The notes beneath the pieces are model-generated. The model worked only from the letters and a program-made list of their open reading frames with translations, made no database searches and had not been told where the DNA came from. Of a stretch of 50,350 nt of DNA, positions 36,234 through 46,424 are shown piece by piece. This stretch comes from Pseudobdellovibrionaceae bacterium (lineage in GTDB: Bacteria; Bdellovibrionota; Bdellovibrionia; Bdellovibrionales; Bdellovibrionaceae), in assembly GCA_013359135.1 (NCBI GenBank), contig JABWCN010000033.1, positions 1 to 50,350 on the forward strand. Reading direction: 5' to 3'. Made by a program: the position numbers and the translations under genes. Positions within the stretch are counted from its first letter, which is position 1; each line of letters begins with the position of its first letter.

Positions 36234-37490
36234 GTGAATACGAAGAAAGAAACTTCAAAAGAAAATTTATTGGAAATTGATTCTAATCTTAAAGAGTTGC
36301 GTATGCAAATAGATAACATTGATCAGCAGTTGATTCCTTTGTTGGATAAAAGAGCCTCTCTTGTTTTTAAAGTTGGTAAGTGGAAGAAAGAAAATGGCAA
36401 AGAAATTTTAGACCCTAACAGAGAGCTGCAAATACTTGAACGCATAGCACTTATTCCTAGAACTACTCTTAGTTGTTTTGAAATTGAGAGTTTATTTAAA
36501 GGAATCATAGAATTTTTCAGAAACGCCGAAGCTGCTCATCAAAACATAGAGTCTGGAAAAAAAATGACTTTTCTAGATAAAAAAGGAACTTTTGGTTTTT
36601 TAGGGTTTGGACTTATTGGTGCATCAATAGCACTATCCTTAAAAGAAAGTTATCCAGAATGCAATTTTTTGATTCATGATCCTTTTTTAGCAACTAATGA
36701 TTATAAAGACTGGATTACAACTCAAGAAAAAAAATCAAAATTGTCATTTAATAATTTCAAATTAGTTGAGTTTGATGAGCTTAACAATTTAGATATTGTT
36801 TTTCTTTCTGCACCTATTAATATTAATAGGAAATTAGGTCCTTTTTTAACAAAAAAAAATAAGATTGTTTTAAACTTAGGAAGCTATCAAGAAGATCTAC
36901 CAGACGTATTAGGATTTCACCCACTTGCAGGTAAGGAAGTAAGTGGCTTTAAAAATTCACAGTCAGATCTTTTCTACAAAAAATGGATTTATCTAAGTTC
37001 TCCAAGCAATAGAAATTTTACAGAACTAGAGCTTTCAACTTTAAAACAAATTGCAATGTCACTTGGAGCCGAAGTTTTTAGTGGAAATAATTCAACTCAC
37101 AATAAAAGTTTATCTTATTCAAGTCATTTACTTCAATTACTATCAATGATTTATGGGATAACACTTGAAAATAGACATGAGGAATTGAATTTCCATGTAG
37201 TTCCAAAATCAGGCTGGGAGTTTTTGCGTTTAAATGGCTCAGATTTAAAAATGTGGGCACCTGTCTTTGAGCGAAATAGTGAAAATGTTATTCAGGCTTT
37301 GAATGAGTTTGAGGAGAACCTAAGGTTAGTTAAAAAAATTATCACATCAAAAACTGAAGAAAATTCAGAAAGTCAGTCTAGTTCAGATGTAAATCCTGAT
37401 GAAGGTAATATTAGCTCAATAAGAAAACTATTTATCAAAGGACAAAAAATTTATAATCATCTTTACTTAAGAAGAAAGAAGGATACATGA
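36234..37490 (+). CDS. tyrA: Chorismate mutase / prephenate dehydrogenase (TyrA, T-protein)
   Basis: Bifunctional enzyme of tyrosine synthesis: chorismate to prephenate, then NAD-dependent oxidative decarboxylation to 4-hydroxyphenylpyruvate. An AroQ chorismate mutase domain (about 15-95; LRMQIDNIDQQLIPLLDKR, VGKWKKENGKEILDPNRE) is followed by the Rossmann dehydrogenase (about 116-385; GFLGFGLIGASIALSL), FHPLAGKE (the HPMxG-like motif), and STHNKSLSYSSHLL with the catalytic His. Starts with GTG at 36234. The last ~45 residues are Ser/Glu-rich and not conserved. It heads the operon: its stop overlaps the next ATG by 4 bases (ATGA, 37487-37490). Confidence 0.92.
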   Translation: MNTKKETSKENLLEIDSNLKELRMQIDNIDQQLIPLLDKRASLVFKVGKWKKENGKEILDPNRELQILERIALIPRTTLSCFEIESLFKGIIEFFRNAEAAHQNIESGKKMTFLDKKGTFGFLGFGLIGASIALSLKESYPECNFLIHDPFLATNDYKDWITTQEKKSKLSFNNFKLVEFDELNNLDIVFLSAPININRKLGPFLTKKNKIVLNLGSYQEDLPDVLGFHPLAGKEVSGFKNSQSDLFYKKWIYLSSPSNRNFTELELSTLKQIAMSLGAEVFSGNNSTHNKSLSYSSHLLQLLSMIYGITLENRHEELNFHVVPKSGWEFLRLNGSDLKMWAPVFERNSENVIQALNEFEENLRLVKKIITSKTEENSESQSSSDVNPDEGNISSIRKLFIKGQKIYNHLYLRRKKDT

Positions 37491-38533
37491 TTATTGTTAT
37501 AAAAAAAGGCTTAAAGCCTGAAAATATCCAAGAGGTACTTCTCAAAATCAAAGATCTTGGCGCATCTCCTCATATTGTTGAAGGTCGTGAACAAATGACA
37601 GTCAGTGTTCTTGGTAAAACCGAGAAAATTTCTTTAAAAGATTTTGAAGTTTTTCCTGAAATTGAAAGTGTTATGAGGGTCTCAAAGCCTTTTAAGTTAG
37701 CTTCTTTAGCTGCTAAGCCTAATGGCTCAACTTTTAACATTAAAGGAGTGATGTTCGGACCAGGACATTTTAATATCATGGCCGGTCCTTGTTCTGTTGA
37801 AAGTGAGGATCAAACATTAAGAATAGCTCATGCTGTAAAAAAAGCTGGAGCTACGATAATTCGTGGTGGAGCTTTCAAGCCTAGAAGTTCCCCTTACTCT
37901 TTTCAAGGCATGGGACTAGAGGGACTAAAAATTCTTCAAAAGGCATCTAGGGAAACAGGCTTACCAATTATTTCAGAAGCTATGGACCTTGAAGGTCTAC
38001 GAATGATGATGGACTATGTTGATATTATTCAAATTGGCGCTAGAAATATGCAAAATTTTGCACTTCTTAAAGAACTTGGAAAAATTGATAAGCCAATTCT
38101 ATTAAAACGTGGAATGTCTGCGACAGTTGAAGAATGGTTAATGAGTGCAGAATACATTCTTGCGGGTGGAAATGATAAAGTCATTTTATGCGAGCGCGGC
38201 ATTAGAACATTTGACACTCAATTCTCAAGAAACACGTTAGACCTTAACGTAGTTCCCATATTAAAAGGCCTTACTCATCTTCCCGTGGTCGTCGATCCAA
38301 GTCACGGAACAGGTTTCAGACATCTTGTAGCGCCAATGTCTCTAGCTGGTATGGCATCTGGTGCTGATTCATTAATCATAGAAGTGCACGATAAGCCTGA
38401 AGAAGCTCTCTCTGATGGACCTCAAGCTTTACTTCCAAGTGATTTTGAAGCGCTAATGAAAAAATTAGTACAAATGGGAGAAATTATGGGACGAAAAGTG
38501 CAAACAGAAATTTTAGACAAGAAAGCTTCATAA
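37487..38533 (+). CDS. aroF: 3-deoxy-7-phosphoheptulonate synthase (DAHP synthase, type I-beta)
   Basis: Condenses PEP and erythrose-4-phosphate to DAHP, the first shikimate step. An N-terminal ferredoxin-like domain (1-70) is the same layout as the Thermotoga enzyme, where this domain mediates Tyr/Phe feedback inhibition. The catalytic barrel shows NIMAGPCSVESEDQ, GGAFKPRSSPYSFQG, ICERGIRTFD-like VILCERGIRTFD, and VVDPSHGTGFR. 348 residues. The start overlaps tyrA by 4 bases, so expression is coupled, and the N-domain makes feedback by tyrosine likely. Confidence 0.95.
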   Translation: MIIVIKKGLKPENIQEVLLKIKDLGASPHIVEGREQMTVSVLGKTEKISLKDFEVFPEIESVMRVSKPFKLASLAAKPNGSTFNIKGVMFGPGHFNIMAGPCSVESEDQTLRIAHAVKKAGATIIRGGAFKPRSSPYSFQGMGLEGLKILQKASRETGLPIISEAMDLEGLRMMMDYVDIIQIGARNMQNFALLKELGKIDKPILLKRGMSATVEEWLMSAEYILAGGNDKVILCERGIRTFDTQFSRNTLDLNVVPILKGLTHLPVVVDPSHGTGFRHLVAPMSLAGMASGADSLIIEVHDKPEEALSDGPQALLPSDFEALMKKLVQMGEIMGRKVQTEILDKKAS

Positions 38534-38534
38534 A

Positions 38535-39773
38535 ATGAAAAAAAGTTTTCACTACCAAGGAACCATACCGGCTTCTAAATCAATTTTAAATAGAGCATTG
38601 ATTTGCGCTTCGTATGCTTTTGAAAGTGAAAGACATAAAAAACTCATCATCACAGGTGATTCCTCTTGTGATGATGTAATTAAAATGAAGGAAGCACTCT
38701 CTATTTTAAAAACAAAGTTTCAAAATTCTTCATCTTTTGTAAATATTCCTGCAACAGTTTATGATTGTGGCGCCGCTGGAACTGTGCTTAGATTTTTATC
38801 TTTAAGGATGAGTCGTATTCCTGGGACCCATATTTTAAAGGGATCTGAAAGGCTTCTTCAACGTCCACAACAAGATTTGTTAGATCTATTCAAAATTTTA
38901 GGTATCAATTATGAAATCAATAAAACTTCGATGACTCTTAAGTCTGAAGGATGGAAAAATATTAATAACCCTATTTTGGTTCAAAGGGGTGTCTCTAGCC
39001 AATTTGCATCAGGATTATTGTTGAATGCTTGGGCTCTTACAGAAGATCTAACTCTTGATATGAAGGGTGAGCCAATGAGTGAAGGTTATCTTCAGATGAC
39101 TATCGATTTAGTCAGTCAACTAGGAATGAATATTGAAAAAAAAGGCAGCCAACTCATCGTGAAAAAAAACAGTTTTATAACCCAGAGCTCTTATCACGCT
39201 GAAAGTGATCTTAGTTCTCTGTTTGCAGTAGCTGCTTTTAGCGTTTTAAATGGGGATTGTGAGTTTAAAGATTTTCCTCTACCAAGTCTTCAACCTGATG
39301 TAGAGTTTTTAGATTTCTTTAAGAAAATGAAAATTCCTTTTGAAATTATTAATGATTATTTAAAAATTAAAACTACATCTGATTTTTATGGATTAGAAGC
39401 TAACTTAAAAAATTGTCCTGATCTCTTTCCAGTGTTAGCTGTTCTCTGTGCCTTTGCCAAAACCCCATCTCAACTTTATGGAGCCCCACAATTAGTTTAC
39501 AAAGAATCTAACCGGATCGCAAAAGTTTCCGAATTACTAAATCTAATAGGTGTCAAAAATACCCCGCAAAGTGATGGAATGACTATTTTTCCAATAGACA
39601 GAGGAAATCTTACGGCAATTAAGTCTTTTTCTTATGATACTGATCATGACCATCGTTTAGCTTTTGCTGCGGCATTGGTAAAATCACAAGATATACCTAT
39701 TAACATTTTAGGCCCTGAGGTTGTTTCAAAAAGCTTTCCTGAATTTTGGGATGTCATAAAGGCGCGTCCTTAG
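38535..39773 (+). CDS. aroA: 3-phosphoshikimate 1-carboxyvinyltransferase (EPSP synthase)
   Basis: Transfers enolpyruvate from PEP to shikimate-3-phosphate. Motifs: PASKSILNRALI (the active-site Lys-Ser-Arg), CGAAGTVLRFLSLR, RPQQDLLDLFKILG, SSQFASGLLLNAWAL, SDLSSLFAVAAF, and KESNRIAKVSELL with DHRLAFAAAL. 412 residues, slightly shorter than the usual 425-440. The sequence is diverged but keeps the active-site lines. It starts 1 base after the DAHP synthase stop. Confidence 0.93.
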   Translation: MKKSFHYQGTIPASKSILNRALICASYAFESERHKKLIITGDSSCDDVIKMKEALSILKTKFQNSSSFVNIPATVYDCGAAGTVLRFLSLRMSRIPGTHILKGSERLLQRPQQDLLDLFKILGINYEINKTSMTLKSEGWKNINNPILVQRGVSSQFASGLLLNAWALTEDLTLDMKGEPMSEGYLQMTIDLVSQLGMNIEKKGSQLIVKKNSFITQSSYHAESDLSSLFAVAAFSVLNGDCEFKDFPLPSLQPDVEFLDFFKKMKIPFEIINDYLKIKTTSDFYGLEANLKNCPDLFPVLAVLCAFAKTPSQLYGAPQLVYKESNRIAKVSELLNLIGVKNTPQSDGMTIFPIDRGNLTAIKSFSYDTDHDHRLAFAAALVKSQDIPINILGPEVVSKSFPEFWDVIKARP

Positions 39774-39821: not shown

Positions 39822-40892
39822 ATGGAACTCATGGGTGGAAATTTATTTGGCGAAAGATTTCAATTGATCAGTTTTGGTGAAAGTCATGGTGTTGGCCTAG
39901 GAGTTGTCATTGATGGATGCCCTTCTGAGGTTATTTTTGATGAAGTTATACTCAGAAAAGAGTTAGAGCGTAGACGTCCAGGTCAAAAAGTAAATAATAT
40001 TTCAATTGTGTCCGATCGTCAGGAGCTTGATAGTCCTGAAATTTTAAGTGGTGTCTATCAAGGGAAAACTCTTGGGACCCCCATAGCTATGTTTGTTCGC
40101 AACAATGATGCTAGATCTCAGGATTATAACGAGATTGCTCAAAAACCTAGACCTGGTCACGCAGATGATACTTGGAAAATGAAATTTGGCCACACAGATC
40201 CGCGTGGTGGTGGACGTTCCTCTGGAAGAGAAACCTTGGCTAGAGTCATGGGTGGAGCTGTTGCGAAAATGTTTTTAAATCAGTGTTTTCCTGAAACTAA
40301 AATCATAGCTTACGCAAAGCAAATTGGCCCATTGAAACTAACACCTGAAGATTGTCTAGAAATAGAAACTAAGATAACTTCACCTTATGAAGTTGATACA
40401 TTTTCTTCTCGCTGCCCTCATGCGATAATGAATTCAAAAATTGAAGAACTATTAGTCAAAGCTAAACAAGAGGGGAGAAGCTATGGAGGAGAAGTAATTG
40501 TTTTAATTAAAAATCCTCCGTCAGGTCTGGGACAACCCGTATTTCACAAACTCAAGTCTGATTTAGCATCTGCCTTCATGAGCCTTGGAGCAACAACTGG
40601 TGTAGAGCTTGGAGCTGGTCATGAAGCTACAGCCGCCGAAGGATCACAATTTCATCAACAACAAACTCAGGCTCACTATGGTGGAATACGTGGTGGAATT
40701 AGTACTGGTGAAACTATTCAGTTTAAGGTATTTTTTAAACCCACGGCCACAGTACTTGATACTGCCAAAAAAGGCAGACACGATCCTTGCATTATTCCCC
40801 GAGCAATACCTGTTCTTGAAGCTATGGCACAAATGGTTATAATGGATCACATTTTATGGCAACGTCAAGATAGAGCTTCTCTCATACGTTAA
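39822..40892 (+). CDS. aroC: Chorismate synthase
   Basis: FMN-dependent 1,4-elimination of EPSP to chorismate. NLFGERFQLISFGESHGVG is the family start; FMN and substrate motifs are RRRPGQKVNN, RPGHADDTWKMKFGHTDPRGGGRSSGRE (in pieces) with the ARV repeat, and the C-terminal GGIRGGISTGETI and KKGRHDPCIIPRAIPVLEAM. 356 residues. The first Met is at 39822; the Met three codons later (39831) gives MGGNLFGERF, a better match to the usual start, so that is a fair alternative. It follows aroA by 48 bases. Confidence 0.95.
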   Translation: MELMGGNLFGERFQLISFGESHGVGLGVVIDGCPSEVIFDEVILRKELERRRPGQKVNNISIVSDRQELDSPEILSGVYQGKTLGTPIAMFVRNNDARSQDYNEIAQKPRPGHADDTWKMKFGHTDPRGGGRSSGRETLARVMGGAVAKMFLNQCFPETKIIAYAKQIGPLKLTPEDCLEIETKITSPYEVDTFSSRCPHAIMNSKIEELLVKAKQEGRSYGGEVIVLIKNPPSGLGQPVFHKLKSDLASAFMSLGATTGVELGAGHEATAAEGSQFHQQQTQAHYGGIRGGISTGETIQFKVFFKPTATVLDTAKKGRHDPCIIPRAIPVLEAMAQMVIMDHILWQRQDRASLIR

Positions 40893-40923: not shown

Positions 40924-42120
40924 ATGAAATTTTCTCAAAGAGCGCAATCTTTAAAAGGGTCTGCAACCATGGCAGCGACTATTAATGCTCAAGAGCGAAT
41001 TAAAAATGGAGAAGATATTATCTTAGCGTCGGTTGGAGAACCAGATTCACCCGTACCACAAATAACAAAACAAGCATTGATTAATCAAATAGAAAACTCC
41101 GACTCAAAATATGGACCAGCACAGGGATTACTCTCTACTAGAAAAGTAGTCAGTCAATGGATGAATGATTTATACCAACAACAATGGCAACCAGAAAATG
41201 TAGTCATCTCGCCAGGATCAAAATATTCACTCTATTCATTACTGCAAATTTTGGGTGACGAGAATACAGAATTACTCATTCCAAGTCCCTACTGGGTAAG
41301 TTATGTAACACTTGGTAAACTAGCCAATATTAATATCAAAATTATTGAATGTAGTTCGAATGAGAACTATAAACTTTCCGCAACTAAACTTAAAAACTTA
41401 ATTACAGGCAAAAACCAGTTGTTATTACTCAATTCTCCACAAAATCCTACTGGGGCTATTTATTCGAAAGAAGAACTTCAATCATTAGCCGAGGTTATAA
41501 AGCAAAGTCCACAGTTAACAGTCATTTGTGATGATATTTATAATCAGTTAATATTTTCTTCTGAATATCGAGCTCCACATGTTCTTGATTTTATGGAGTC
41601 ATCGTCAGCTTCTAAAGAAGATATTTACAATCAAGTAATCGTAGTTCATGGAGCTTCCAAAAGTTTTGCATTAACAGGTTGGCGCTTAGGCTGGACAGCG
41701 GCCTCTAGAGAAATATCAAAAAAACTAAGTGAATTTCAAAGCCAAACTCTCACTTGCATGCCTGATTTTCTTCAAATAGCTTTAGAGAAAACTTTACAAC
41801 AAGAAACACAGTTTGTTTTAGAATTAAAAAGTTTAATAAATCGACGCTACCAAATAGCAAGTCAAAAGTTAAATTCATGTCCCTTCATAAAAGTATTTCC
41901 ATCAGCAGGGGCTTTTTATATTTGGTTTGAAGTTTTGGATAAATCTAAAAACTCTGCTCAAATGGCATCAGAACTTTTAGAACAACATGGAGTGGCAGTT
42001 GTACCTGGTGCTTCCTTTGGTTGTGAATATCATTTAAGATTTTCAGTAACTATACCAGACGACCAACTTCTAAAAGGAATAGAACGCATAATTCAATATT
42101 TTACGCAAAAAAATCTCTAA
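40924..42120 (+). CDS. Aspartate/aromatic aminotransferase (PLP, class I fold)
   Basis: Aminotransferase with PLP lysine in GASKSFALTGWRLGW, aspartate pairing the pyridine nitrogen in VICDDIYNQLIF, and N-terminal SVGEPDSPVP. It is of the class Ib aspartate-aminotransferase group (many of which also act on prephenate or aromatic keto acids). In this operon the expected reaction is 4-hydroxyphenylpyruvate plus Glu (or Asp) to tyrosine, completing the route from TyrA. Prephenate aminotransferase is an alternative. AAAGGTG lies before the ATG. 398 residues, normal. Confidence 0.88.
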   Translation: MKFSQRAQSLKGSATMAATINAQERIKNGEDIILASVGEPDSPVPQITKQALINQIENSDSKYGPAQGLLSTRKVVSQWMNDLYQQQWQPENVVISPGSKYSLYSLLQILGDENTELLIPSPYWVSYVTLGKLANINIKIIECSSNENYKLSATKLKNLITGKNQLLLLNSPQNPTGAIYSKEELQSLAEVIKQSPQLTVICDDIYNQLIFSSEYRAPHVLDFMESSSASKEDIYNQVIVVHGASKSFALTGWRLGWTAASREISKKLSEFQSQTLTCMPDFLQIALEKTLQQETQFVLELKSLINRRYQIASQKLNSCPFIKVFPSAGAFYIWFEVLDKSKNSAQMASELLEQHGVAVVPGASFGCEYHLRFSVTIPDDQLLKGIERIIQYFTQKNL

Positions 42121-42131
42121 GGAATCTCTTT

Positions 42132-43178
42132 ATGCAACCATCAAAAATAATTTTTAAAAATCAATTTCCTAAAGCGACTAGCTTAGCTCAAACTCCTGTT
42201 TTAATTTTTGATAAACATCTTCTAACTATACCAGCCATAAAAACATGGTTGGAGACTTTTCCACTTAAAATTTCTGTAACTGCAGGTGAAGAACTCAAAC
42301 AATTCAGTAGCTTTGAAAAAATATTTTTAGAGTTATTGAATTTAGTAGAAAAGACCGGAACAAAAAATTTTACCCTTATTGGATTGGGAGGAGGAAGCGT
42401 TGGTGATTTTGTTGGCTTCCTCTCTTCAGTTTTTAAAAGAGGTATTCCTTTAATTCACATCCCTAGCACATGGCTTTCAGCAATCGATTCTTCCCATGGA
42501 GGCAAAACAGCTTTAAATGTTGGCGGCTATAAAAATCAAATTGGTACTTTTTACCCTGCTCAAAGTATTTATCTAATAAAACCAATACTTTTTTCGCAAC
42601 CAGAAGAAAGAACAGAAGAAGCATTAGGTGAAATTATAAAGACAATACTATTAGAAGGTAATTCACTTTGGGAAAAAACAAAAAACTGGAAGTCTTTAAA
42701 TTCACAAAAACTATGGAGCCTTCTACCTGAATTAATCAGTTACAAGTATAAAATTGTTAAAAAAGATCCTTTCGAGAAGAAAGGCATTCGCTTTTTTTTA
42801 AACTTTGGACACACTTTCGGTCATGTTCTTGAATCAAGTCTTAAGATACCTCATGGAATTGCTGTTAATTATGGAATTAGAATTGCTTTAGAGTTTTCAT
42901 TACAAAAAAGAGTCATTACAAAAAAGAGATTTGATGATTTAAACAAAAGTCTTTTAATCAAAAACCTTTTATTCTCTAAAGAATCTGCTTGCAAAGTTAT
43001 TAATGAAGCAAATCAATTTGGAGGTATAAAGAAACAGCTTCTTCAAGACAAGAAAGCTGCTGGAAAAAATCAAGTTAATTTCGTTTTTCTTATTGCTCCT
43101 GGAAAACCTAAAGTCATTACTATACCTAATGAGGCTTTACTTAAATTTGCTATTTCACAAGAAATAAAAGAGAACTAG
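42132..43178 (+). CDS. aroB: 3-dehydroquinate synthase
   Basis: NAD- and metal-dependent cyclisation of DAHP to dehydroquinate. Motifs: GLGGGSVGDFVGFLSSVFKRG, IHIPSTWLSAIDSSHGGKTALN, NVGGYKNQIGTFYPA, and the zinc ligand region FLNFGHTFGHVLE with the later HGIAVNYGIR. 348 residues. AAGGA precedes the ATG. It follows the aminotransferase by 11 bases and is 1 base before the fused gene. Confidence 0.94.
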   Translation: MQPSKIIFKNQFPKATSLAQTPVLIFDKHLLTIPAIKTWLETFPLKISVTAGEELKQFSSFEKIFLELLNLVEKTGTKNFTLIGLGGGSVGDFVGFLSSVFKRGIPLIHIPSTWLSAIDSSHGGKTALNVGGYKNQIGTFYPAQSIYLIKPILFSQPEERTEEALGEIIKTILLEGNSLWEKTKNWKSLNSQKLWSLLPELISYKYKIVKKDPFEKKGIRFFLNFGHTFGHVLESSLKIPHGIAVNYGIRIALEFSLQKRVITKKRFDDLNKSLLIKNLLFSKESACKVINEANQFGGIKKQLLQDKKAAGKNQVNFVFLIAPGKPKVITIPNEALLKFAISQEIKEN

Positions 43179-43179
43179 C

Positions 43180-45111
43180 ATGTCATCTATGGATCAAATA
43201 AATCAGTTGGTTATTTTTGGTCAAAGAGGAGTGGGTAAAACGTCTTTTCTTAATCGTCTAAAACATTACTGGAAACATTCCGAATTTAAGTTTTTAGATT
43301 TAGATCAAGAAATTGAAAAGTTAACTGGAAAAACGAATTCAGAAATATTCGCAAATGAAGGCGAAGCTGCATTTAGAAAATATGAGTGGGATATTTTCAA
43401 CAGTCTTATAAATAATCATAATAAATTAGTATTAACCTTAGGCGGTGGGTTTCCCGTAGAAAAAATCCCAAAAGAAATCTATTGTCTTTGGTTACAGCGT
43501 TTTTCTGACGAAAGTGGTCGCATTTTTACAGATCGTCCCAGACTCAACCCTGAACTCACGGATCTTGAAGAATTTTTATTAAGATCTAAAACTCGAGCAA
43601 TTCAATTTAGAAAAAGAGCGGACGAAATTTATTTTGTATCAGAAGGTTTAGATTATCCTAATACAATTGAGGAAAATATTTTTAATAGTAAATTTTTATT
43701 TCAAAACTTTTACCTAACTCTCTCTGAAGAAAACTACGAACACAAATTATTCTTAAAAAAAATAGGTATGTCGGGATTTGAACTCAGAGATGATTTGCTC
43801 TCTCATGAAAAAATGTATGATCTTATTAAATTGTTGTCACCTCAACATTTAATCCTAAGTTTTCGAGATATAAAGCAAGCAAAGAAATCTTTTGAAGTTT
43901 TTGATCATATAAGACTTCAATGCTCTTCATTCTCAAAAAACCATATCTTTATTGACTGGGCAATTGAACTAGGACCACCAGATTTAACTTCGAGTTTAAA
44001 GCCAAATACAATTTCCCTTCATGAGTTTCTTCCGGGTGAGGGATTAGACTTATTTTTAAAAAGACTGGAAAACTACACTCATAATTTCAGTGCAGCTTTA
44101 TCAAGACCTCACTTAAAAGCATCACCGGTAATTAGTACATGGAAAGAACTTATAATGCTTTGGGAGTGGCAAAGAAAAGATCCACTGAATAGGTCTATTC
44201 TTCCCAGATCACCTAATGGACAATGGAGTTGGTTCAGACAACTTATGAGTCTTAAACAAAAAATTAACTTTTGGAAAGTTTCTCAAGGATCTGCTTTTGA
44301 TCAACCTACACTGTACCAGACTCAAGCTTTGCCCCAAAAAATATCTACTTGGGCGGCGTTATTAGGAAAGCCCGTAGCTCATTCAAAAACTCCTATTGAA
44401 CAACAATCATTCTTCCATTTTTATAAAATGCCAATTTTTGCTATAGAACTAAGCGAAGAAGATTTTTCATTAGCTATTCCCTTTTTATTTCAACTTGGTC
44501 TACGGGCTGCTGCCGTGACATCACCGCTTAAACTCAAAGCTTTTCAACTTGTTACTGAAAATCATCATGAATTGATGAGGCAAACAACAACTGAAAATGT
44601 TCCTGCCTTAAATCCAGAGGCTCTTGAGTTTAAATCTATTAATACCTTGATTTTAACTACAAACTCAGAAAAGCCAAATGGTTTTGAAGTCATTGGTACT
44701 AATACAGATGTAGATGGCTTTGCTAAAAGTGTAGAATTTATTGAGGAAAAAAATTCTATTAGAATAGCAATTTGGGGTGGAGGAGGAACTCTTCCTATTA
44801 TTAAAAAAATTCTACCTCACTCTATCGAGTTTTCAGTTAGAAGTGGTAAAGAGCGAGATAGTAAAGAAATCTTAAAAAATCCTGAAATTTTAATCTGGGC
44901 GGCCGCACCTGATGCTGAGCCTCCCTCTGACTTTATAAAAGATCCTACCTTAGTTATAGATTTAAATTATAAAGAAAGTTCTTTAGCCAGAGCTTATGCA
45001 AAAAGCATTAAGGCTAAATATATTTCTGGAAATTTAATGTTTAAAGAGCAAGCCAAAAAACAGCGTGAATTTTGGCTTCCACTAAGTCATTTATTTACTA
45101 CAAACAAGTAG
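43180..45111 (+). CDS. Trifunctional fusion: shikimate kinase - type I dehydroquinase - shikimate dehydrogenase
   Basis: One 643-residue protein with three shikimate domains. (1) About 1-170: shikimate kinase, P-loop GQRGVGKT (14-21), DLDQEIEKLTGK, GEAAFRKYEW, LGGGFP, and lid DRPRL. (2) About 175-387: diverged type I 3-dehydroquinase, ELRDD (R203), LSFRD (R229), SLHEF (His281) and LKASP (Schiff-base Lys313); the usual glutamate of the EGG motif is not seen. (3) About 390-643: shikimate dehydrogenase, GKPVAHSKTP, AAAVTSPLKLKAF (Lys451), SINT (N488), GTNTDVDGF (D510), and a Rossmann GGGG. The order SK-DHQ-SDH is that of the C-terminal half of fungal AROM. It ends in a 21-base convergent overlap with the next gene. 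Domain calls 1 and 3 are firm; 2 is likely. Confidence 0.88.
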   Translation: MSSMDQINQLVIFGQRGVGKTSFLNRLKHYWKHSEFKFLDLDQEIEKLTGKTNSEIFANEGEAAFRKYEWDIFNSLINNHNKLVLTLGGGFPVEKIPKEIYCLWLQRFSDESGRIFTDRPRLNPELTDLEEFLLRSKTRAIQFRKRADEIYFVSEGLDYPNTIEENIFNSKFLFQNFYLTLSEENYEHKLFLKKIGMSGFELRDDLLSHEKMYDLIKLLSPQHLILSFRDIKQAKKSFEVFDHIRLQCSSFSKNHIFIDWAIELGPPDLTSSLKPNTISLHEFLPGEGLDLFLKRLENYTHNFSAALSRPHLKASPVISTWKELIMLWEWQRKDPLNRSILPRSPNGQWSWFRQLMSLKQKINFWKVSQGSAFDQPTLYQTQALPQKISTWAALLGKPVAHSKTPIEQQSFFHFYKMPIFAIELSEEDFSLAIPFLFQLGLRAAAVTSPLKLKAFQLVTENHHELMRQTTTENVPALNPEALEFKSINTLILTTNSEKPNGFEVIGTNTDVDGFAKSVEFIEEKNSIRIAIWGGGGTLPIIKKILPHSIEFSVRSGKERDSKEILKNPEILIWAAAPDAEPPSDFIKDPTLVIDLNYKESSLARAYAKSIKAKYISGNLMFKEQAKKQREFWLPLSHLFTTNK

Positions 45112-45504
45112 TGCTGAATGCTTGCTAACTTCAGGAAGACTCAAAACAGCGTTATAGACTCCTGATGGAAGTTGGTGATTTTGCATATTAGGTACTAAGA
45201 TGGAGATTTTTCCAAAAGCATCTTTATAAATAGTCCCTCTTAAATCATTGCTAGCTTCAACAGCGTAAAATAACGGCTTACTTGGATTGTTAACCAAAGT
45301 GACTTTAGCTAAAATTCCTTTATTAAGGTAGGCAGCAACGCTTACAACCGCATTAACATTTTGTGATTTACTAATTTCAAGAGATCCTTGACAACGAACA
45401 AACTCAAATCCTTGTGTACCATTACTGATAGATGGACCATGAGATGGAACAGCGAAAAGACTTACAGATGTTAATAGACCAAATACTAAAATTAATTTTT
45501 TCAT
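45091..45504 (-). CDS. Hypothetical exported protein
   Basis: Not recognised. 137 residues with signal peptide MKKLILVFGLLTSVSLFAVPSHGP, cleavage near LFA. The mature domain (~118 residues) looks like a compact beta protein with Cys at FVRCQGS and at LLVCSK near the end. A GAGG ribosome site is near the ATG. Its 3' end overlaps the aroKDE fusion by 21 bases in antisense. It is divergent from the TIGR02147 regulator, with palindromes in between, so it is a candidate target of that regulator. Confidence 0.6.
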   Translation of the reverse strand: MKKLILVFGLLTSVSLFAVPSHGPSISNGTQGFEFVRCQGSLEISKSQNVNAVVSVAAYLNKGILAKVTLVNNPSKPLFYAVEASNDLRGTIYKDAFGKISILVPNMQNHQLPSGVYNAVLSLPEVSKHSALLVCSK

Positions 45505-45614: not shown

Positions 45615-46424
45615 ATGAGAGCACTTTTTAATAGCAAAAGCTATCAAGATTATCTTCAAATTTTAATTAATCAACTACACTCAGAACGAGGTTTTCAAAC
45701 AAAATTGGCGAAAGCAATGGGCGTGCAAGCTGCTTATTTATCTCAGGTTTTAAAGGGAAAGGCAGACCTAAATGAAGACCAGGCCATTGCCCTTTGTCAC
45801 TTCATAGATTTCACAGATCTTGAAACAGAATACTTTCTTTTATTGGTACGACTATCCCGAGCTGGAACTTCAGAACTTCGTGTTTTTTTAGAAGACAAAA
45901 TGAAAAAAATACAAGGTGAATACCAAGAAATTTATTCACGGGTTCCTTCTAAACAATCTCATCTTTCAGCGGAAGATACACAAAGATATTTTGCGACCTG
46001 GATTCCTTCAACACTGCATACAGCAACAAGCTCTAATCAATATCAAACTGTTGAAAAACTAGCTGAACGTCTTGATTTAGATACTCAAGTTGTTAAACAG
46101 ACTTTAAAATTTCTGAGTGATGTAGGCCTGGTTACTCATAATGAAAACCGTTATGAGTTCTCTGGTAAATCACTACATTTCACTAAACAAATTTCTATGA
46201 ATCAAACGATTCAAATCAGCAGAAGATTGCAGGCTATTAAATCAATTGAAAAAGACACGGCTGATGATCTACACTTTTCATCAGTTTTTACGATAGACAA
46301 AAAAACACTAACTACTTTACGTGAACTTTTTTTAGAAGTTATTGAGTCTTCTCACAAAGAAATACACTCCTCTGGTACAGAGGAGTTATATGCAATGTGT
46401 ATTGATTTATTTGAGGTTGTTTAA
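45615..46424 (+). CDS. TIGR02147-family putative transcriptional regulator
   Basis: This family is expanded in Fibrobacteres and Bdellovibrio-like bacteria. 269 residues: an N-terminal helix-turn-helix region (about 8-60; YQDYLQILINQLHSERGF, LAKAMGVQAAYLSQVLKGKADL) is followed by a helical body (DUF4423-type) with a winged-helix segment around 140-185 (TVEKLAERLDL, TLKFLSDVGLVTHNENRYEF). AAGGGG lies 5 bases before the ATG. It is divergent from the small exported protein gene, with palindromes between them. The 3' end overlaps the convergent coiled-coil gene by 4 bases. Confidence 0.85.
   Translation: MRALFNSKSYQDYLQILINQLHSERGFQTKLAKAMGVQAAYLSQVLKGKADLNEDQAIALCHFIDFTDLETEYFLLLVRLSRAGTSELRVFLEDKMKKIQGEYQEIYSRVPSKQSHLSAEDTQRYFATWIPSTLHTATSSNQYQTVEKLAERLDLDTQVVKQTLKFLSDVGLVTHNENRYEFSGKSLHFTKQISMNQTIQISRRLQAIKSIEKDTADDLHFSSVFTIDKKTLTTLRELFLEVIESSHKEIHSSGTEELYAMCIDLFEVV

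Follow-up and report, generated by a model that had tools for sequence, protein, structure and literature searches.

A predicted shikimate kinase-dehydroquinase-shikimate dehydrogenase fusion in AROM domain order in Bdellovibrionota

The AROM polypeptide joins five activities of the shikimate pathway in the order DHQS-EPSPS-SK-DHQD-SD (PMC6851490), that is, B-A-K-D-E. Two-domain D-E enzymes and AroK-AroB fusions are likewise already known, and an AroL-AroB fusion has been described in Herbaspirillum (PMC7311316). A published bacterial K-D-E or A-K-D-E fusion was not found in the open literature searched. An open reading frame in a contig of a Pseudobdellovibrionaceae bacterium (JABWCN010000033.1; the whole analysed stretch of 50,350 nucleotides is referred to here as the window) raises the question of whether a bacterium can carry these three domains in one protein, whether all three are enzymes, and how such a protein is related to AROM. 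We consider it very probable that this gene, termed aroKDE, specifies a single polypeptide for steps 3, 4 and 5 of the shikimate pathway, the only one that the cell has for them, and that it is an old fusion of the Bdellovibrionota whose likeness to AROM most likely arose by convergence.

The gene occupies positions 43180-45111 of the + strand, encodes 643 amino acids in an open frame, starts 1 bp downstream of the stop codon of aroB and has an alternative in-frame ATG at 43189. Its product is divided into an AroK domain (approximately residues 1-165; 43180-43674, +), an AroD domain (approximately residues 175-387; 43702-44340, +) and an AroE domain (approximately residues 391-643; 44350-45108, +), and AF2 models the whole protein with a pLDDT of 92 and a pTM of 0.92. 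Sequence comparison and modelling confirm this frame as a predicted AroK-AroD-AroE fusion in AROM domain order, as an earlier note on this DNA had proposed; the arrangement turned out to be wider than noted there, being found across nearly the whole order, within an aroB-aroA-aroKDE-aroC operon and, in some lineages, as A-K-D-E. An assembly artefact as the source of the fusion was considered and rejected, because the same frame recurs in more than 100 distinct loci from many projects. A 137-aa ORF without a Pfam match lies on the opposite strand (window 45091-45504, -) and converges on aroKDE, the two 3' ends sharing 21 bp.

The two outer domains could be assigned by family matches and active-site residues. 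Pfam shikimate kinase (PF01202) covers residues 16-95 with an E-value of 4.7e-15, and the AroK site residues, namely the P-loop GQRGVGKT (K20), D40/D42, R66, E69, G88-G90, R119 and R139, vary little or not at all across 39-66 orthologues; the P-loop is accompanied by counterparts of D34, R58, G80, R117 and R136 (Mycobacterium numbering). The substrate-binding N-domain of shikimate dehydrogenase (Pfam) is matched by residues 394-461 (E 8e-6; 26.4 bits vs a cut-off of 27), and NCBIfam aroE scores 65 bits on the aroKDE protein, far under its 200-bit cut-off. Taken alone, the AroE domain reaches 70 bits with TIGR00507, E 6e-23 to Aquifex AroE in a PDB profile search and Z 21.6 in VIA structural comparison. 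Residues S402, T404, K451, N488, D510, GGGG533-536, Y597 and Q624 are kept; K451 and D510 represent the catalytic Lys65/Asp102 pair (E. coli numbering), and the shikimate-site residues are present as well. The earlier statement that kinase and dehydrogenase motifs are complete is borne out, and both active sites keep their patterns as far out as L151, L153 and L154, the most distant homologues. Because the model matches of the fusion are in part sub-threshold or absent, automated pipelines will recognise no more than one or two of its three activities.

The middle third is the part for which annotation is silent, as it has no Pfam match from the single sequence and none in NCBIfam either. A middle-domain profile of 42 orthologues searched against PDB retrieved type I DHQases as the only matches with E < 0.01 (2ocz, E 1.9e-5; 3l9c, 3e-3), followed by 2egz at 0.057, and a second set of middle-domain sequences gave an E-value of 6.9e-4 to a type I DHQase. 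In the profile, the motifs E-x-R-x-D, S-x-R, S-x-H and K align with the known DHQase active site. The isolated AroD domain was modelled by AF2 with a pLDDT of 90.3, and the top 37 VIA-align entries for the model are all type I DHQases, domains of AROM and plant enzymes included (Z 12.2-14.6; rmsd 3.0-3.5 Å over about 195 of 224 residues), the first unrelated barrel appearing at Z 11.0. Since PF01487 is matched at E <= 10 by only four of the 42 AroD-domain members (best 0.0038) and its gathering cut-off is not reached by the window protein, we refer to the family as a divergent type I DHQase and not as a PF01487 member. The earlier reading of residues 175-387 as a type I DHQase holds, being significant by family profile and model fold, though the single-sequence Pfam search is empty.

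Conservation in this domain is concentrated at the predicted active site. Among 66 divergent orthologues, with an overall AroD-domain column identity of 28%, E201, S279, H281, K313, R353 and Q375 are invariant (66/66), and R203, D205, R229 and D259 are nearly so. We take the counterparts in Salmonella AroD to be E46/R48/D50/R82/D114/S-x-H143/K170/R213/Q236, a numbering that combines alignment reading with established knowledge. His281 (codon 44020-44022, +), the equivalent of AroD His143, aligns with the SxH motif, and Lys313 (codon 44116-44118, +), the equivalent of the Schiff-base Lys170, with the VK motif. The earlier note had recorded these two residues as present and the usual Glu as absent, which is right if Glu86 is meant: of the classical triad Glu86-His143-Lys170, the first member is replaced in the window protein by Gln233 (codon 43876-43878, +), at a position that varies across the family and is Glu in 14/66, and the substrate-site Glu (AroD E46, here E201) is among the invariant residues. 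In the work of Light et al. (2013), activity was reportedly retained in Glu86 mutants. The His/Lys pair has been described as the DHQase I catalytic dyad, with reference to those mutants (PMC9074039), and a missing Glu is on these two counts no argument for a dead enzyme. A large natural type I DHQase family without a conserved Glu86 offers a test of the dyad-versus-triad question. Sequence kinship, barrel fold and the Lys/His pair support the assignment of the middle domain as a type I 3-dehydroquinate dehydratase, with the activity itself predicted. The deep-branching fusions L151, L153 and L154, the last two from Myxococcales MAGs, lie next to aroC and keep His281 and Lys313; at position 375, the Gln236 equivalent is replaced by His in L153 and L154 and by Val in L151, and Ser371 is absent from all three.

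aroKDE closes a contiguous cluster of genes that all lie on the + strand, neighbours being separated by -4 to 48 bp. In order, the preceding genes encode a chorismate mutase - prephenate dehydrogenase (36234-37490; PF01817 exceeds its cut-off, PDH_C does so narrowly and PDH_N falls short), a DAHP synthase (37487-38533; PF00793, E 1e-77), the EPSP synthase AroA (38535-39773; PF00275, E 1e-53), the chorismate synthase AroC (39822-40892; PF01264, E 9e-104), a class I aminotransferase (40924-42120; PF00155) and the 3-dehydroquinate synthase AroB (42132-43178; PF01761/PF24621). These genes lack only steps 3-5, and the cluster covers all chorismate steps if aroKDE supplies them. In the source genome, which is 99.98% complete, neither PF01487 nor PF01220 is represented by a gene above threshold, and no gene besides aroKDE matches PF08501 or PF01202; the separate aroD/aroE set that the earlier note had contemplated was looked for, and no second aroD, aroQ, aroE or aroK was found. 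By sequence comparison, aroKDE is the sole recognisable source of aroD, aroQ, aroE and aroK functions in this genome. Two more DAHP synthase-family genes are present beside the operon copy (G000:C55:29583-30305 and G000:C56:53351-54121). A promoter scan gave a signal no better than shuffled sequence. Just downstream of the cluster lies a gene for a TIGR02147/DUF4423 regulator (window 45615-46424, +), a family typical of Fibrobacter and Bdellovibrio.

The fusion was counted at E < 1e-10 in 197 related genomes (141 of the same order and 56 from outside it), nine weaker matches (best E 1.6e-7) being excluded. It is present in 130 of them, comprising 128/141 within the order and 2/56 outside. Type II DHQase occurs in 26/197 genomes and stand-alone type I in 4/197, none of which carries the fusion, and no separate recognisable dehydroquinase was found in any fusion-bearing genome among the 197, a mutual exclusion of fusion and aroQ/aroD that is confounded by common ancestry. 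Fusion-less lineages of Bdellovibrionota (families f8, f14, f17 and f18) often hold a type II dehydroquinase, and approximately 37/197 genomes have neither DHQase type nor the fusion; such genomes may be incomplete, or they may belong to genuine auxotrophs for aromatic compounds. A contig scan with the single aroKDE protein yielded no relatives, against 80 with an alignment query. The named relatives are Bdellovibrionota, including Bdellovibrio sp. qaytius (complete genome), the rest being a small number of MAGs filed under different labels. KDE genes from MAGs assigned to Planctomycetota, Myxococcales and Deltaproteobacteria (L101, L132 and L117) nest among the Bdellovibrionota, which points to mislabelled bins or transfer. 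One MAG holds two KDE loci (L129 and L145; JAPORL010000195.1 and JAPORL010000186.1), the match in L145 being split across two short frames, which suggests either a mixed bin or a second copy in decay.

For a whole order of predatory bacteria, the assignment fills a gap, since the dehydroquinase there is invisible to Pfam and NCBIfam. A survey of soil Bdellovibrionaceae reports widespread auxotrophies, with 17 amino acids and chorismate assessed by similarity to characterised proteins (PMC10665431). Because the procedure relied on such similarity, part of the auxotrophy call may be an annotation artefact.

In the mechanism that we propose, 3-dehydroquinate delivered by AroB would enter the AroD barrel and be dehydrated through a Schiff base (imine) on Lys313, with His281 acting as the acid/base proton shuttle. 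The resulting 3-dehydroshikimate would pass to the adjoining AroE domain and be reduced to shikimate with NADPH, the predicted preferred cofactor, and the AroK domain would phosphorylate shikimate with ATP. AroA and AroC would finish chorismate, and with aroB and the DAHP synthase the route of the cluster would be complete. The compact packing predicted for the model would allow channelling between the domains.

We regard it as very unlikely that only the kinase and the dehydrogenase work, with the middle barrel inactive and serving as a spacer or for dimerisation, and the cell relying on an unrecognised dehydratase or on aromatics from prey. A dead barrel would fit the failure of single-sequence Pfam to find a DHQase and the unconserved Glu86, and it has a precedent in Candida albicans Aro1, a fusion with a dead DHQase domain in which both catalytic residues are lost and alongside which a type II enzyme is present (PMC9074039). 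In aroKDE, by contrast, the catalytic His/Lys and the substrate-site residues have remained invariant despite the low column identity of the domain, no other DHQase accompanies it in this genome or, recognisably, in any other with the fusion, and the remaining pathway is intact in one cluster. A trifunctional enzyme with a working dehydroquinase domain is the reading that we retain.

The neighbourhood of the fusion extends its likeness to AROM. The commonest order, aroB-aroA-aroKDE-aroC, is seen in 60/115 distinct loci, the remaining ones being mostly truncated or mildly rearranged, and the window reads A-C-aminotransferase-B-KDE. The gene order aroB-aroA-aroKDE equals the domain order of AROM. 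In several loci the ends of aroA and aroKDE are joined by an ATGA overlap, so that a small change can fuse the two. AroA and KDE indeed form one frame of approximately 970-1120 aa in L051, L052, L096, L114, L136 and L149 (that of L149 ended by the contig end), and Pfam verifies the EPSP synthase part in L051 and L052; frames in the same size range, candidate A-K-D-E fusions, also occur in genomes G025, G081, G085, G088, G093 and G095. Two aroA fusion events are counted on a 90-row tree and one on a 30-row tree. We envisage the family as an old Bdellovibrionota invention that would have arisen by fusion of neighbouring genes, aroA having been joined later in some lineages. All of these proteins differ from the five-domain AROM in having three domains in the window and at most four elsewhere, AroB being separate wherever found. 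The bacteria present a graded series of AROM-building events, from an operon in AROM order through fused K-D-E to fused A-K-D-E, and this permits direct tests of how an operon may turn into a fusion and of what is gained by this order.

Whether such fusions arose independently or were transferred was left by the earlier note as a question to be decided. Common ancestry of the fusion and AROM, either with the operon as the source of AROM or with bacteria having taken the C-terminal half of AROM from a eukaryote, appears very improbable to us. It would readily explain the identical B-A-K-D-E order (1/120 by random order), present as an operon and, in some lineages, carried further to a fused A-K-D-E, and AROM is the top match both of a concatenated B-A-K-D-E query (193 bits) and, among whole chains, of the complete structural model. 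AROM ranks first for the concatenated query because the scores of all domains sum, and the whole model deviates from the AROM chain by 18-19 Å rmsd along its length. Domain by domain, however, bacterial enzymes outscore AROM: the best bacterial vs AROM scores are 127 vs 77 bits for EPSPS, 118 vs 66 bits for DHQS, 34 vs 24 bits for SK and 84.7 vs 54.1 bits for the SDH profile, and the AroE domain scores 70 bits with NCBIfam aroE vs 33 bits with Shik-DH-AROM. In AroA and AroB trees, built with a small panel of plasmid-borne, and hence plasmid-biased, bacterial sequences, AROM falls among other bacteria, outside the Bdellovibrionota clade (support 100/100 and 100/99), and the AroA of AROM groups with proteobacterial/campylobacterial AroA. 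Forcing AROM and Bdellovibrionota together carries a penalty of 16.4 and 11.9 log units, with AU p = 0.051 and 0.03 on this small, plasmid-biased panel, so that the tests reject the grouping no more than marginally, a point in favour of common ancestry. Superposition of the D-E part of the model with Arabidopsis DHQ-SDH covers 410 residues at 3.6 Å rmsd (Z 19.5), and the predicted D-E packing is like that of plant DHQ-SDH and not like that of AROM.

Domain scores, trees and predicted D-E packing make independent assembly the better account, and convergence on the AROM order is the reading that we favour, although the sequence-based rejection of a common origin is weak. On the question left by the earlier note, the evidence leans to independent assembly, and the formal tests leave that answer short of firm. 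That the aroB-aroA-aroKDE operon and the A-K-D-E fusions preserve the arrangement from which AROM came, through an ancient transfer and not by convergence, is a reading to which we give only a slight chance.

Comparison with known systems places the predicted convergent fusion more precisely. With AROM (Chaetomium, 6hqv; Candida Aro1, 7u5s/7tbv; S. pombe, 5swv) it shares the K-D-E order, and the A and B functions encoded upstream extend the likeness; it differs in being bacterial and three- or four-domain, with each domain nearer bacterial enzymes and a different predicted arrangement. Plant DHQ-SDH (Arabidopsis 2gpt, 2o7q, 2o7s and 6bmb) and the Chlamydia AroDE type have the same D-E order, with a packing in the plant entries compared that resembles the one predicted here; both types, however, lack a kinase domain, and the plant D domain is an ordinary type I DHQase, whereas the D domain of aroKDE lies below Pfam detection. 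Stand-alone type I DHQases (Salmonella AroD, 1qfe; Aquifex, 2egz; Streptococcus, 2ocz) share the barrel (Z 14.6-13.7), Lys/His and the substrate-site residues, whereas aroKDE is fused, approximately 12-16% identical in structural alignment and unconserved at Glu86. The AroK-AroB fusions (NCBIfam PRK13951 and PRK14021) likewise join a bacterial shikimate kinase to another pathway step, but with another partner and order and in two domains.

QutR, the fungal quinate repressor, is a homologue of the C-terminal three domains of AROM, and a K-D-E fusion serving as such a sensor instead of an enzyme would have the same domain order as reported for QutR (compared by description alone), but this is hardly credible for a protein with three complete and invariant active sites that supplies its genome's sole copy of each of the three enzymes and is located in a biosynthetic operon. 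Outside Bdellovibrionota, B-A adjacency is seen on a Collinsella aerofaciens plasmid (L167:4871-11457), where aroB-aroA-aroC is followed by a 416-aa 'shikimate kinase', possibly of two domains, and by aroQ.
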